Shown here piece after piece: positions 31,005 to 43,799 of a stretch of DNA of 64,000 nucleotides. Within the stretch, counting starts at the first letter, position 1. Each line of letters begins with the position of its first letter. The position numbers were made by a program, and so were the translations under genes. The DNA comes from Sphingomonas sp. GTDB lineage: Bacteria > Pseudomonadota > Alphaproteobacteria > Sphingomonadales > Sphingomonadaceae. The stretch spans positions 21,564 to 85,563 of the forward strand of contig NZ_JAGHZV010000021.1 of the NCBI RefSeq assembly GCF_017745215.1, given 5' to 3'. A model generated the notes under the pieces. It was not told the DNA's origin. It ran no database searches and saw nothing but the letters and a program-made list of their open reading frames with translations.

Positions 31005-31922
31005 TTAGATCCGCTCGCCCGAAAGCCGCTGGCAGACCATGTCGAGCTGGTCGAGCGTCGAATAGGACAGCGTCAGCGTGCCGCCCTTCGCCCCGTGCGC
31101 GATGCGGATGTTGAGCCCGAGCACGTCGCCCAGATGTCGTTCGAGCGCCTCGATATCGGCGTCGCGGTCGCCCCTGGCCTTGCGCTTGAGCACCGGCTTG
31201 GACTCGCGGACGAGCTTCTCGGTGTCGCGGACCGAAAGGTCCTTGTCGATCACGACGCGCGCGAGCTTCTCGGCGTCAGGCACGCCGATCAGCGCGCGGG
31301 CATGGCCCATGTCGAGCGCACCCTCCATCACCATCTGGCGGACCGGCGTCGGAAGATCGAGCAATCGCAACAGGTTGGCAATGTGGCTGCGCGACTTGTG
31401 GACGAGCCGGCCAAGCGCTTCCTGGGTGTGGCCGAACTCCTGGATCAGCCGCGAATAGCCCTCGGCCTCCTCGATCGCGTTGAGGTCCTTGCGCTGGATA
31501 TTCTCGATCAGCGCGATCTCGAGCGTCTCGGCATCGTCGAGTTCGCGGACGATCACCGGCACTTCGTGGAGCCGCGCGCGCTGCGCCGCGCGCCAGCGGC
31601 GCTCGCCGGCGACGATCTGGTAGTTGTGCCCCTGCGGGCGGACCATGATCGGCTGGATCAGCCCGCGCGTGGCGATCGACTTGGCGAGCTCCTCGAGCGC
31701 ATCCTCGTCGAAGAAGCGGCGCGGCTGGCCCGGGTGCGGCACCAGCGAGCTCACCGGTAGCATGCGGATCCCGGAGTTCGCTTCGGGCGTGCCGCCCACC
31801 GGCTCCTCGCGCGCATTGTCGCCGAGCAGCGCCGAAAGGCCACGACCGAGCCCGGGGCGCGGCTTGCGCGACGCAGTGGCGGGGCTCAGGGGCGCGGTGG
31901 GCACGGGCGTCTCGGTCGTCAT
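31005..31922 (-). CDS. parB: Chromosome partitioning protein ParB
   Basis: GLGRGLSALLGD; LIQPIMVRPQGHNYQIVAGERRWRAAQRA; ALIENIQRKDLNAIEEAEGYSRL. Confidence 0.98.
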   Translation of the reverse strand: MTTETPVPTAPLSPATASRKPRPGLGRGLSALLGDNAREEPVGGTPEANSGIRMLPVSSLVPHPGQPRRFFDEDALEELAKSIATRGLIQPIMVRPQGHNYQIVAGERRWRAAQRARLHEVPVIVRELDDAETLEIALIENIQRKDLNAIEEAEGYSRLIQEFGHTQEALGRLVHKSRSHIANLLRLLDLPTPVRQMVMEGALDMGHARALIGVPDAEKLARVVIDKDLSVRDTEKLVRESKPVLKRKARGDRDADIEALERHLGDVLGLNIRIAHGAKGGTLTLSYSTLDQLDMVCQRLSGERI

Positions 31923-32707
31923 GCGGCCTTCTTGTGCTTGGGCAGGCGCTCGATCACTTCACGCGCCAGCGCGATATAGGCTTCGGAACCGGAGCATTTG
32001 TAATCGTAGATCAGCGCCGGCACGCCGTGGCTCGGTGCTTCGGACAGGCGGACGTTGCGCGGGATCACCGTGTCGAACACCACGCGGCCGAGCACCGCGC
32101 GAACGTCGTCCGAGACCTGGTCGGTCAGCCGGTTGCGCCGATCGTACATCGTCAGCACCACGCCGAGGATCGACAGGCCGGGATTGAAGCGGCTGCGGAT
32201 CCGCTCGACGGTGTTGAGCAGCTGGCTGAGCCCCTCGAGCGCGAAGAATTCGCACTGGAGCGGGACGAGCAGCGCATGCGCCGCGACCATCGCGTTGATC
32301 GTCAGCAGCCCCAGCGACGGCGGGCAATCGATCAGGATGACGTCCCAGCGCGACCCCGCCGCGGTGCTCCGCGCGATCGCGCCGTCAAGCCGGTGGGTGC
32401 GCGCCTCGAACTCGATCAGCTCGATCTCGGCGCCCGAAAGATCCTGCGTCGCCGGCACGATGTCGAGCCCGGGGACCTTGGTGGGGATGGTGACCTCTTC
32501 GAGCGTCACGTCGCTCACCAACAGGTCGTAGCTCGAATGCTCGCGATCGGCGCGCAGGATGCCGAGCCCGGTCGAGGCGTTGCCCTGGGGATCGAGATCG
32601 ATCAGCAGCACGCGCTTGCCGATCGCGGCGAGCGCGGTGCCGACGTTGATGGCCGTGGTGGTCTTGCCCACCCCGCCCTTTTGATTGGCAATCGCGATGC
32701 AGATCAT
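31919..32707 (-). CDS. parA: Chromosome partitioning ATPase ParA
   Basis: CIAIANQKGGVGKTTTAINVGTALAAIGKRVLLIDLDPQGNASTGLG. Confidence 0.98.
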   Translation of the reverse strand: MICIAIANQKGGVGKTTTAINVGTALAAIGKRVLLIDLDPQGNASTGLGILRADREHSSYDLLVSDVTLEEVTIPTKVPGLDIVPATQDLSGAEIELIEFEARTHRLDGAIARSTAAGSRWDVILIDCPPSLGLLTINAMVAAHALLVPLQCEFFALEGLSQLLNTVERIRSRFNPGLSILGVVLTMYDRRNRLTDQVSDDVRAVLGRVVFDTVIPRNVRLSEAPSHGVPALIYDYKCSGSEAYIALAREVIERLPKHKKAA

Positions 32708-33327
32708 CGGCTACGCACCTCCTGCGCTACCACGATTCCTGAATCCGGCTGCGTAATGCTTGGTTCCACGTGAAACACACCCTGCCACGCGCGTCGCGCC
32801 GCTTCCACCTCCGAATGCGCCCTGCTGCCCTTCGGAAGCAACCATCTTGTGGATGAATTCGCGCAAGGGTGCGCGGCAGCGAGAAGCTGCGACAATTCGG
32901 CAACGGCCCGGGCAGAGATGACCGCAGCTTTCCGGGGCAACCGGACAGCTTCGATCTTGCGCGGCTCGACCGTCACCCGATCGGCGATCCCGAGCATTTC
33001 GGCCGCGTGACGAAGGAATTCGACGCGTCTGGCGCGGGGCTCGGAGAGGACCAGCTGTCGCTCGGTGAGGACCGCGACGACGAGGCCCGGCAGTCCGGGA
33101 CCGCTGCCAATGTCGAGCCACGGACCCTCGGCCGCGCCGTCCGCGAGGGGGACGAGCTGGGCGGAATCGACGAGGTGTCGATTCCAGATCGTCTCCAGCG
33201 TCGATGCGGCGACGAGGTTCTGCCGCTCGTTCTCGGCGGCGAGCAGTTCGGCGAAGCGAGCGAGCAACGTTTCACGTGAAACACCGAACCGCTCGCGGAC
33301 CCAGGCCCGCGCTTCCTCCTCGGTCAT
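32704..33327 (-). CDS. rsmG: 16S rRNA (guanine-N7) methyltransferase RsmG
   Basis: [46 protein letters not shown]. Confidence 0.95.
32763..32776. promoter_or_regulatory. parS-like site (3' end of rsmG)
   Basis: GTTCCACGTGAAAC, 1 mismatch to GTTTCACGTGAAAC. Confidence 0.88.
33269..33282. promoter_or_regulatory. parS site (5' part of rsmG)
   Basis: Perfect GTTTCACGTGAAAC. Confidence 0.95.
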
Positions 33328-35153
33328 GCGGCGCGCCGTGCGTGGAGGAGGATCGCCGAAAGCGCCGCCGGGGTGATCCCGCGGATGCGCGACGCAGCCC
33401 CCAGCGTCGCGGGACGCGACGCGCTGAGCCGCTCGACCATCTCGTTCGACAGGCCCGGGATCGCGGCGAAGTCGAGCGCCTCGGGCAAGCGGACGGCGTC
33501 GTTGGTGCGGAGCTGGCTTACCTCGGCTTCCTGGCGCTCGAGATAAGGAGCATAGCGCGCATCCTCGATCGCCTCGGCGAGCAGCTGCGGGTCGCCGTCA
33601 AAGGCCACGCCGAGATGCGCAAGCTCGACCCCCGGGAAGCGCAGCCATTCGGCGGTGCTGCGCCGCGCCCCGTCAGCGGCAACCGGAGCGCCGCGGCTGC
33701 GGAGCACGCTGGAGGTGATCTGCTCGGAGAAACGTGCGTCCAGATGCGCTCGCTCGGCCTGGCGCGTTTCGAGGCGCGCCAGCCGCCCCTTCCCAAGACA
33801 ACCGAGCTCGCGAGCGATCGGACCGAGCCGCGTCTCGGCATTGTCGGCGCGCAGCCTCAGGCGGAACTCGGCGCGCGCCGTGAGCATTCGATAGGGCTCG
33901 GTGACGCCCTGGAGCACGAGGTCGTCGATCATCACGCCGAGGTAGGACTGGGCCCGGTCGAGCACCAGCGGCGCGATTCCGAGCGCATGGGCCGCGGCGT
34001 TGATCCCGGCGACCAGTCCCTGGCCCGCGGCCTCCTCATATCCGGTCGTGCCGTTGATCTGGCCCGCGCAGAAGAGCCCGCGCAGCACGGGCAGCGCCAA
34101 GGTCGCATCGAGCGCGCGGGGGTCGAGATGGTCATATTCGACCGCATAGCCCGGCGTGACGATCGCCGTCCGCTCGAGCCCGGGGATCGACGCCACCATC
34201 GCCTGCTGGATATCGACGGGCAGCGACGTCGACATGCCATTGGGATAGACGAGCGGCGTGTCGAGCCCCTCGGGCTCGAGGAAGATCTGGTGCCCGTCAC
34301 GGTCGCCGAAGCGATGGATCTTGTCCTCGATCGACGGGCAATAGCGCGGGCCCTGCGCCTCGATCGCGCCGGTGAATAGCGGCGAGCGATGGAGGCCGGC
34401 GCGGATCGCGTCGTGCGTCGCCTCGGTGGTGCGCGTGACGCCGCAGTGGAGCTGGGGGAGCAGCCGCGCGGGCGTGACCGGCGACATCGTCCAGGGGTCT
34501 TCGTCCGAAGGCTGCTCGGCCACGCGCGCCCAATCGATCGTGCGGCCGTCGAGCCGAGGCGGCGTGCCGGTCTTGAGCCGCGCCATCGGCAGCGCGAGCT
34601 CGCGGAGCTGTGCCGCGATGGCATGCGCGGCAGACTCGCCGATCCGGCCGCCGTCGAGCCGCTCCTCGCCGCGAAAGATCCGGCCTCCGAGGAAGGTGCC
34701 CGTGGCGAGCACCACTGCCGGAGCCGAGAGGAGGGTGTCGTCGGCGAGACGGACGCCGGCGATCCTGCCTGCGTCGAGGATCAGCGCCGCCGCCTCGCCT
34801 TCGACGAGCGTAAGGCCTGCCTGCGCGTGGAGCATCGCCTGGATCGCGGCCGCGTAGCGCTTGCGGTCGGCCTGGACGCGCGGTCCCTGGACGGCAGTGC
34901 CCTTCGAGCGATTGAGCATGCGATAATGGATCGCCGCGGCATCGGCGGCGCGAGCGATGAGGCCGTCGAAGGCGTCGGTCTCGCGGACGAGATGGCCCTT
35001 GCCCAGCCCACCGATCGCCGGGTTGCACGACATTGCGCCGAGCTTGGAAAGGTCGAAGCTCAGCAGCGCCGTACGCGCGCCGCGCCGCGCCGAAGCGGCG
35101 GCCGCTTCGGTCCCGGCATGACCGCCGCCGATCACGATCACATCGAACTGCAT
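33324..35153 (-). CDS. mnmG: tRNA uridine-5-carboxymethylaminomethyl modification enzyme MnmG (GidA)
   Basis: [56 protein letters not shown]. Confidence 0.98.
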
Positions 35154-35193
35154 GTCGCGCCCGCTAGTCGTTCCCGGCGCTCGCGTCAAAAAC

Positions 35194-35207
35194 GTTCCAC
35201 GTGGAAC
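35194..35207. promoter_or_regulatory. parS-like site between mnmG and mnmE
   Basis: Perfect palindrome GTTCCACGTGGAAC. Confidence 0.85.
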
Positions 35208-35210
35208 AGC

Positions 35211-41175: not shown

Positions 41176-41628
41176 TCAGAAGGGCTTCACCACCGCAAGC
41201 ACCACGATGAGGATCACCGCGAGCGCGGGTACTTCGCCGAGGAGCCTGAGCGTACGCGACGGAATCGGCGCCTTGCCCGCGGCGAGCTTGCGCGAATACG
41301 ACACGGCCCAACCATGATAGCCCGAAAGCGCCACGACGAGGAGCAGCTTGGCGTGGAGCCAGCCGAGCCCCGGCGCGCCGTCGAACAACCCCATGTTCGC
41401 AGCGAGGGTAAGGCCCAGCAGCCAGACGATGCCGATCGAGGGCGTCAGGATCATGCGCTTGAGCAACGCCTCGCGCTCGGCCCATTTGGCCGCCTCGGGC
41501 GTGCCCAGCGCTTCCTGGTGATGGACGAGATAGCGCGGGAGAAGGAACAGCCCCGCCATCCAGAAGATCACGAAGATGAGGTGCGCAGCCTTCACCCACA
41601 GATAGGTGCTTCCCAGGAATCCGATCAT
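41176..41628 (-). CDS. hemJ: Protoporphyrinogen IX oxidase HemJ (UPF0093)
   Basis: MIGFLGSTYLWVKAAHLIFVIFWMAGLFLLPRYLVHHQEA; next to hemE. Confidence 0.93.
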   Translation of the reverse strand: MIGFLGSTYLWVKAAHLIFVIFWMAGLFLLPRYLVHHQEALGTPEAAKWAEREALLKRMILTPSIGIVWLLGLTLAANMGLFDGAPGLGWLHAKLLLVVALSGYHGWAVSYSRKLAAGKAPIPSRTLRLLGEVPALAVILIVVLAVVKPF

Positions 41629-42659
41629 CGTCCCCTCACCCGCGCCAGCAGCGCCTCGACATGCTCGATCGGCGTGTCCTGCTGGATGCCGTGACCGAGA
41701 TTGAACACGTGCGGGCGATTCGGAAAGGCCCCGAGGATCCGGTCGATCGCGGCATCGAGCGTCGCGCCGCCGGCGATCAGCGCGAGCGGATCGAGATTGC
41801 CCTGCACCGGCAGCCCTTCGGGGAGCACGGCGTCGGCCCAGGCTGGGTCGACGCTCTCGTCGAGCCCCACTGCGTCGACCCCCGTCTCGCGCGCATAGGC
41901 GGCGAGCTTGCCGCCCGCGCCCTTGGGGAAGCCGATCACCGGCACCTGCGGCGCCCTGGCCTTGAACGCCGCGACGATCCGCGCGGTCGGTGCGACCACC
42001 CATTGCTCGAACTGCGCCGGCGAGAGGCTGCCCGACCAGCTGTCGAACAGCTGCACGGCCTCGACGCCCGCCTCCGCCTGGCCGAACAGATAGTCGACGG
42101 TGCAATCGACGATGCGGTCGACCAGCGCCTGCATCAGCGCGGGATCGGCATAGGCGAGCCGGCGCGCCTCGGCCTGTTCGCGGCTCCCTTGCCCTGCGAT
42201 CATATAGGTCGCGACCGTCCAGGGGCTGCCCGCAAAGCCCAGCAAGGTGACGTCATGAGGCAAGCTGGCCTTCACGCGGCGCACGGTCGCGTAGATCGGC
42301 TCGAGCACCCTTGGATCGGGCACCAGCGCGTCGAGCGCGGCCCTGTTCGCGATCACCGGCGCCAGCCGCGGCCCCTCGCCCGCCTCGAACCAGAGCTTCT
42401 GGCCCAGCGCCATCGGCACCATCAGGATGTCCGAGAAGAGGATCGCCCCGTCCATCCCGAAGCGCCGGATCGGCTGGAGCGTGATCTCGGCCGCGGCCTC
42501 GCTGTCGAGCGCAAGCACGAGGAACCCGCCCTTCTCGGCCCTCAGCGCGCGATATTCGGGCAGATAGCGCCCCGCCTGGCGCATCAACCAGATCGGCGGG
42601 CTCTCCTGGCGAACCCCTTTCAGCGTTTCGAGGAGCGGCTTGGACGGAACCGGAGTCAG
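41625..42659 (-). CDS. hemE: Uroporphyrinogen decarboxylase (probable CTG start; ORF caller start is 42587)
   Basis: LMRQAGRYLPEYRALRAEKGG, GFAGSPWTVATYMI; conserved-looking N-terminal extension PLLETLKGVRQESPPIW in frame upstream of 42587. Confidence 0.93.
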   Translation of the reverse strand: MTPVPSKPLLETLKGVRQESPPIWLMRQAGRYLPEYRALRAEKGGFLVLALDSEAAAEITLQPIRRFGMDGAILFSDILMVPMALGQKLWFEAGEGPRLAPVIANRAALDALVPDPRVLEPIYATVRRVKASLPHDVTLLGFAGSPWTVATYMIAGQGSREQAEARRLAYADPALMQALVDRIVDCTVDYLFGQAEAGVEAVQLFDSWSGSLSPAQFEQWVVAPTARIVAAFKARAPQVPVIGFPKGAGGKLAAYARETGVDAVGLDESVDPAWADAVLPEGLPVQGNLDPLALIAGGATLDAAIDRILGAFPNRPHVFNLGHGIQQDTPIEHVEALLARVRGR

Positions 42660-42968
42660 GTCGGGTCTCCCTTACAGACTCAAGAGAGTCTTAGATTCAA
42701 GAAAGATGCTGGAGTCTGTTGGCGCGTGGAAGCCGGGGCTTATGCACTTGTCCGCGATCTGCCAACAGCTTGACGCGCGTCCGCCCCTCGGAGTCAGCCG
42801 GATTCGCTCGTCGTAATCCCGTAATCCACAGCCTGTGGATCGGATCGACGGGCTGGGGACCGCGTTGTGGACGAATCAGCTGCGACTCCCCGAGCCTGCG
42901 GACGCTTGGCCCGTGCACGCGCTTGCGCTAGCGCTGTCCACGATGTTGTCCACAAAGCTGTCCCCCTG
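42653..42968. other. Predicted chromosomal replication origin (oriC)
   Basis: hemE-oriC-ppsR synteny; 8 GANTC sites (42653, 42677, 42686, 42694, 42712, 42791, 42801, 42884); DnaA-box-like 9-mers TTATGCACT (42740), TAATCCACA (42822), CGATCCACA (rc 42834-42842), TCGTCCACA (rc 42866-42874), TTGTCCACA (42946); AT-richer patch about 42674-42720; transcription diverges here. Confidence 0.85.
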
Positions 42969-43799
42969 ATGCGGTTGCACCTCCACCTTCTCTCGGATTC
43001 GACGGGCGAGACGCTGGAGAATATCGCCAAGGCGGCGCTTGCCCAGTTCGACGATGTCGAGACGTTGCGCCACTTCTGGCCGATGGTGCGCAGCGAAGCG
43101 CATCTCGAGCGCATCCTCCAGGAGATCGCGCAGAACCCGGGGCTCGTGCTGTTCACCCTGGTGAATTCCGAGATCCGACGCACGCTCGAGGCCCGCTGCC
43201 GCGCGATGGGGTTGCCGGCGGTCGCGCCGCTCGATCCGGTCAATCATGCGCTGACCAATCTGCTCGGCCAGGAAGCCAAGGCGCGGCCGGGTCGCCAGCA
43301 CGTCCTCGACGCCGCCTATTTCGCGCGCGTCGACGCGATCCAGTTCACCATCGCGCACGACGACGGCATCGGCATGGAGGATTGGGAAGAGGCCGACGTC
43401 GTCCTCGTCGGGGTGTCGCGCTCGTCCAAGACGCCGACCTCGATCTACCTCGCCAACCGCGGATACAAGACCGCCAATATCCCGATCGTGGTCGAATCGC
43501 CGCCCCCGCCCGATCTCTACAAGCTCAGGCATCCACTGATCGTCGGGCTCACGACGAGTGCCGACCGGCTGGTCGCGATCCGCCGCAATCGCCTCCTCTC
43601 GCTGAACCAGCACCCCGAGACGAGCTATGTCGACCAGGATTCGGTAGCGCGCGAGATCGCCTATGCCCGGCGCATGTTCGCCGACAATGGCTGGCCGGTG
43701 ATCGACGTCACCCGCCGCTCGATCGAGGAGACCGCCGCCGCGATCATCCAGCTCTGCAACGAGCGCATGGCGGGACTCACGGGCGGCGACCGGGAATGA
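42969..43799 (+). CDS. ppsR: Pyruvate, water dikinase (PEP synthase) regulatory protein, DUF299 kinase/pyrophosphorylase
   Basis: MRLHLHLLSDSTGETLENIAKAALAQF; DVVLVGVSRSSKTPTSIYLANRGYKTANIPIV. Confidence 0.96.
   Translation: MRLHLHLLSDSTGETLENIAKAALAQFDDVETLRHFWPMVRSEAHLERILQEIAQNPGLVLFTLVNSEIRRTLEARCRAMGLPAVAPLDPVNHALTNLLGQEAKARPGRQHVLDAAYFARVDAIQFTIAHDDGIGMEDWEEADVVLVGVSRSSKTPTSIYLANRGYKTANIPIVVESPPPPDLYKLRHPLIVGLTTSADRLVAIRRNRLLSLNQHPETSYVDQDSVAREIAYARRMFADNGWPVIDVTRRSIEETAAAIIQLCNERMAGLTGGDRE

Follow-up and report, generated by a model that had tools for sequence, protein, structure and literature searches.

The hemE-ppsR intergenic region

The window, by which we mean the whole 64-kb stretch of Sphingomonas DNA that was analysed, belongs to a draft genome of 4.16 Mb in 38 contigs. 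Within it, hemE and ppsR diverge from an intergenic gap of 309 bp, and parA and parB lie on the hemE side (Table 1). A first-pass annotation, made from the letters of the window, had placed a probable chromosomal replication origin between hemE and ppsR. Its identification of hemE, ppsR, parA, parB, mnmG, mnmE and rho was confirmed by Pfam. It had also described a gap with no convincing coding sequence from 42588 to 42968. The gap is real; however, the start at 42588 was wrong, because it had been set by a TTG at 42587 that is internal to hemE. The first 72 bases of that interval, up to 42659, still encode the conserved HemE N-terminus LTPVPSKPLLETLKG, and the true start of the gap is 42660. 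In a search of the whole genome for parS-like sites with at most one mismatch, the three listed in Table 1 were the only ones found.

The apparent CTG start of hemE has AAGGGAG seven bases upstream and a stop codon just before. Of 78 Sphingomonas hemE genes, 36 (that of the window and those of 35 further loci) had no ATG, GTG or TTG at the required start position. A suitably placed CTG was present in 33 of these 36, and in 26 of the 33 a tetramer resembling a Shine-Dalgarno sequence lay no more than 18 bases upstream of it. A literature search found nothing relevant on a CTG start of hemE.

Table 1. Features of the hemE-ppsR locus, given as positions in the window
Feature	Position	Strand	Basis
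parB	31005-31922	-	Pfam
parA	31919-32707	-	Pfam
Three parS-like sites (32762-32777, 33268-33283, 35193-35208)	32762-35208		Sequence search
hemE, uroporphyrinogen decarboxylase	41625-42659	-	Pfam URO-D; apparent CTG start 42659-42657
Candidate chromosomal origin (Cori/oriC), entire hemE-ppsR intergenic gap	42660-42968		Motifs, conservation, polarity switch
AT-richer segment, 41% GC, candidate DNA-unwinding element	42674-42719		Base count; unwinding role putative
Eight CcrM-type GANTC sites (starts 42677, 42686, 42694, 42712, 42791, 42801, 42873, 42884)	42677-42888		Count
Conserved CCGGGGCTTATGC, includes TTATGCACT	42733-42748	+	Alignment; role putative
DnaA-box-like TTATGCACT, 2 mismatches	42740-42748	+	9-mer scan
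Most conserved block TGCCAACAGCTTGAC	42760-42774	-	Alignment of relatives
Central inverted pair of DnaA-like boxes, TAATCCACA (+) / CGATCCACA (-)	42822-42842		Sequence
DnaA-like box TAATCCACA, 1 mismatch	42822	+	9-mer scan
DnaA-like box CGATCCACA, 2 mismatches	42834	-	9-mer scan
DnaA-like box TCGTCCACA, 2 mismatches	42866-42874	-	9-mer scan, alignment
Conserved TTGGC...CGCTAGC, candidate ppsR promoter	42906-42934	+	Alignment; role putative
DnaA-like box TTGTCCACA, 1 mismatch, adjoins ppsR; TTATCCACA in several relatives	42946-42954	+	9-mer scan, alignment
ppsR, kinase/pyrophosphorylase (PF03618, COG1806), ATG at 42969	42969-43799	+	Pfam Kinase-PPPase

Motifs in the gap

Five 9-mers within two mismatches of the DnaA-box consensus TTATCCACA were located in the gap, in line with the several that had been noted before, and no perfect TTATCCACA was found there. 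The inverted pair ATCCACA-GCC-TGTGGAT, also reported in the first-pass annotation, is present exactly at 42824-42840. When the 4.16-Mb genome was searched, the inverted pair TCCACAGCCTGTGGA and the exact pair TCCACAGNCTGTGGA each occurred once. The gap contained four TCCACA cores, the maximum for any 310-bp stretch of the 64 kb. One-mismatch 9-mers numbered four in the 64 kb versus 1.7 expected; since this count is near chance, they are weak evidence by themselves, which the TCCACA clustering is not. At least three TCCACA within 310 bp were seen at five distinct places, the gap included, in 2.46 Mb of sampled DNA from relatives, so that TCCACA clustering alone is not diagnostic.

The AT-richer segment proposed near 42674-42720 was borne out by the base count (41% GC, versus 61% in the gap and about 68-69% in the window). 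This segment holds four of the GANTC sites and the imperfect inverted repeat ACAGACTCAAG/CTGGAGTCTGT. A DnaA-trio element is not claimed, as TAGATGATAGTAG is missing from the window's own gap. In some other members of the family, L023 and L025 included, TAGATGATAGTAG flanks the AT-rich segment and resembles a DnaA-trio element.

The strongest local statistic, absent from the first-pass annotation, was the number of GANTC sites: eight in the gap against about 0.9 expected (mean of 0.88 per 310 bp over the 64 kb), with five in the runner-up 310-bp stretch elsewhere in the 64 kb. A CcrM-type RAMA-domain protein was encoded in 59 of the 61 Sphingomonas genomes searched, including the one studied here. 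As judged from the motif, the GANTC sites imply that the region is methylated by CcrM.

Two perfect copies of TTATCCACA lie 24 bp apart upstream of ccrM in the same genome (G000 contig C33:128446-128478; L005, L006, L146). Of 32 Sphingomonas examined, 18 had a perfect DnaA box upstream of ccrM, a fraction that is only indicative because the 32 were mostly best RAMA matches and not a random sample. These boxes suggest a putative control of ccrM by DnaA.

Conservation of the gap among relatives

The best PpsR matches among named genomes were from Sphingomonas, and 80 such loci were compared. The hemE(-)/ppsR(+) arrangement was found in 78 of them, with gaps of 294-507 bp. When motifs were averaged over these 78 gaps and the window, TCCACA occurred 3.20 times per gap (0.06-0.15 expected) and GANTC 5.56 times (0.78-1.19 expected). 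The GC content was 58% in the gaps versus 66% in the flanks. GANTC abundance was common but not universal, since the number per gap ranged from 2 to 11 and was only 2 in the closed relative G093.

The alignment revealed shared blocks at 42733-42745, 42760-42774, 42825-42839, 42865-42870, 42922-42932 and 42942-42955, with the highest conservation at 42760-42774. The latter block, TGCCAACAGCTTGAC, had a single exact copy in the 4.16-Mb genome, and so did TGCCAACAGNTTGAC within it. Its minus strand reads TCAAGCTGTTG, which is IHF-like and a putative IHF-binding site; the core TCAANNNNTTG lies inside the block, yet the site differs from the consensus WATCAANNNNTTR at two positions. The blocks at 42733-42774 and 42902-42934 may be promoters of hemE and ppsR, and 42733-42748 could also be the site of the -10 element of the minus-strand hemE promoter. 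Part of the conservation may therefore be transcriptional.

A similar plan was retained in other genera of the family. Two genera, g26 and g80, gave no ppsR match but still had DnaA-box-like sites upstream of hemE, with two TCCACA cores in g80. Since these genera keep such sites at hemE, the motif distribution suggests that the origin is linked to hemE, not to ppsR. The cluster in g26 (L302, L303), with 8-9 TCCACA cores upstream of hemE and several perfect TTATCCACA, is much stronger than that of Sphingomonas.

Strand polarity in closed relatives

Because the genome under study is a draft in 38 contigs, closed relatives were used at chromosome scale. G093, of the same genus (3,376,213 bp), was sampled over about 59% of its length and over a contiguous 190-kb stretch. 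Its most strand-biased octamer was GGGCAGGG (158 to 15), and GGGNAGGG was taken as a KOPS-like motif from general knowledge of FtsK. In the sampled data, the best-fit change-point of GC skew fell in the stretch starting at 2,176,001 and that of GGGNAGGG at 2,244,001. In the 190-kb stretch, 20 copies of GGGNAGGG to the left of the gap were on the minus strand and 2 on the plus strand, and to the right 15 were on the plus strand and 3 on the minus strand. The switch lay between 2,207,806 and 2,221,749, a 14-kb interval that contains the gap, which is immediately upstream of the ppsR start at 2,208,874. The GC-skew minimum, which the first-pass annotation had put forward as a check, agreed only roughly: the cumulative minimum of G093 was at 2,159,928, 49 kb off the gap (1.5% of the chromosome).

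The same picture was obtained in a second closed relative, G201 (Sphingomonas sp. 7/4-4, NZ_CP115960.1), by an octamer search. All 57 copies of GGGGCAGGG between 0.80 and 3.05 Mb were on the minus strand, and from 3,129,095 onwards the plus strand took their place. The gap, just above 3,127,381, lies within the 76-kb interval of the polarity flip. Within the window, GGGNAGGG occurred five times on the minus strand to the left of the gap and once on the plus strand to the right; GC skew inside the 64 kb was uninformative. In each of the three genomes, parS-like sites were located on the hemE side of the gap, at a distance of 6-10 kb. A literature search for marker-frequency work in Sphingomonas found nothing relevant.

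Origins adjoin dnaA in many bacteria, and the closed relatives G093 and G073 are numbered from dnaA, so the origin could be expected there, with the features of the hemE gap being coincidental. However, dnaA of G093, at base 488, is 1.17 Mb from the gap and its polarity switch by the shorter arc, and the dnaA locus has a single TCCACA core with no box cluster alongside. Moreover, dnaA is not conserved near the origin in Sphingomonadales (PMC8116508). An origin at dnaA is thus extremely improbable.

The gap might instead be no more than the divergent promoter region of hemE and ppsR, where DnaA and CcrM control transcription, with the true origin lying nearby. The two blocks that look like promoter elements, one facing each gene, and the DnaA boxes upstream of ccrM as well would fit this explanation. 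Nevertheless, the KOPS-like switch brackets the gap to 14 kb in G093, DnaA-box-like sites persist upstream of hemE where ppsR is missing, and at least three box cores, together with an inverted pair that is conserved, are more than a promoter requires. The Cori of Caulobacter, furthermore, combines promoter and origin functions, which also counts against a promoter-only role. We consider such a role very unlikely.

Comparison with known origins

The locus shares with a Cori-type origin an intergenic hemE-COG1806/ppsR gap, a DnaA-box cluster kept in relatives, an AT-richer segment, nearby parS sites and parAB, and a strand-polarity switch in two closed relatives. Like the Cori of Caulobacter crescentus, it is flanked by hemE and a COG1806 gene, carries several weak DnaA-like boxes instead of perfect ones, and is linked to the par locus. 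Unlike that of Cori, its IHF-like site matches only with two mismatches. The Caulobacter G-box reportedly reads TGATCCACA; this sequence was absent from the window's gap. Cori has five CtrA sites (PMC1914354, PMC4468827), whereas no CtrA box (TTAA-N7-TTAA) was found within one mismatch in the gap and one was found with two mismatches. The missing CtrA boxes are unsurprising, because CtrA sites have not been observed at most other origins (PMC4468827).

An oriC adjoining hemE has been published for Caulobacter and Rickettsia, as related in PMC1914354 with reference to Brassinga. Within the family, PMC4741004 gives a predicted oriC near hemE for most Sphingomonadaceae, and PMC4059872 one by hemE in Novosphingobium. 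The predicted origins of Sphingopyxis granuli TFA and Novosphingobium PP1Y (DoriC) are likewise near hemE with several DnaA boxes, and that of Sphingopyxis also has a candidate unwinding element (PMC4741004, PMC4059872). No clear difference from these origins appeared in the accounts of PMC4741004 and PMC4059872, which, in their passages on these origins, do not mention GANTC abundance.

Origin assignment and its implications

The polarity switch, the parS sites, the distant dnaA and the motifs conserved in 78 related gaps support the original proposal of a replication origin between hemE and ppsR. We conclude that 42660-42968 is almost certainly the origin from which this Sphingomonas chromosome is replicated (probability about 0.94). 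It is an ordinary case, a well-supported further instance of the hemE-adjacent origin already expected for the group.

At such an origin, the inverted pair at 42822-42842 would serve as a binding site for DnaA, as would the boxes on either side of it at 42740, 42866 and 42946. The DNA would bend at the conserved 42760-42774, possibly through IHF, so that the complex reaches the AT-richer segment at 42674-42719, which would then open. Two forks would depart, one towards hemE and parAB and the other towards ppsR. Their passage would leave the GANTC sites hemimethylated, and the hemimethylated sites may report or limit re-initiation via CcrM.

A GANTC-rich origin without CtrA boxes, combined with DnaA boxes at ccrM, could further be read as a DnaA-CcrM loop, in which the Sphingomonas origin is gated by DNA methylation in place of CtrA. 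We regard this as a speculative and rather unlikely extension; if true, the loop would couple initiation to remethylation. The assignment fixes the origin of one Sphingomonas genome independently of the dnaA position that is used for numbering some records, and studies of replication and copy number can make use of its coordinates. With many GANTC sites and no CtrA boxes, the region lends itself to a direct test of methylation-based control.
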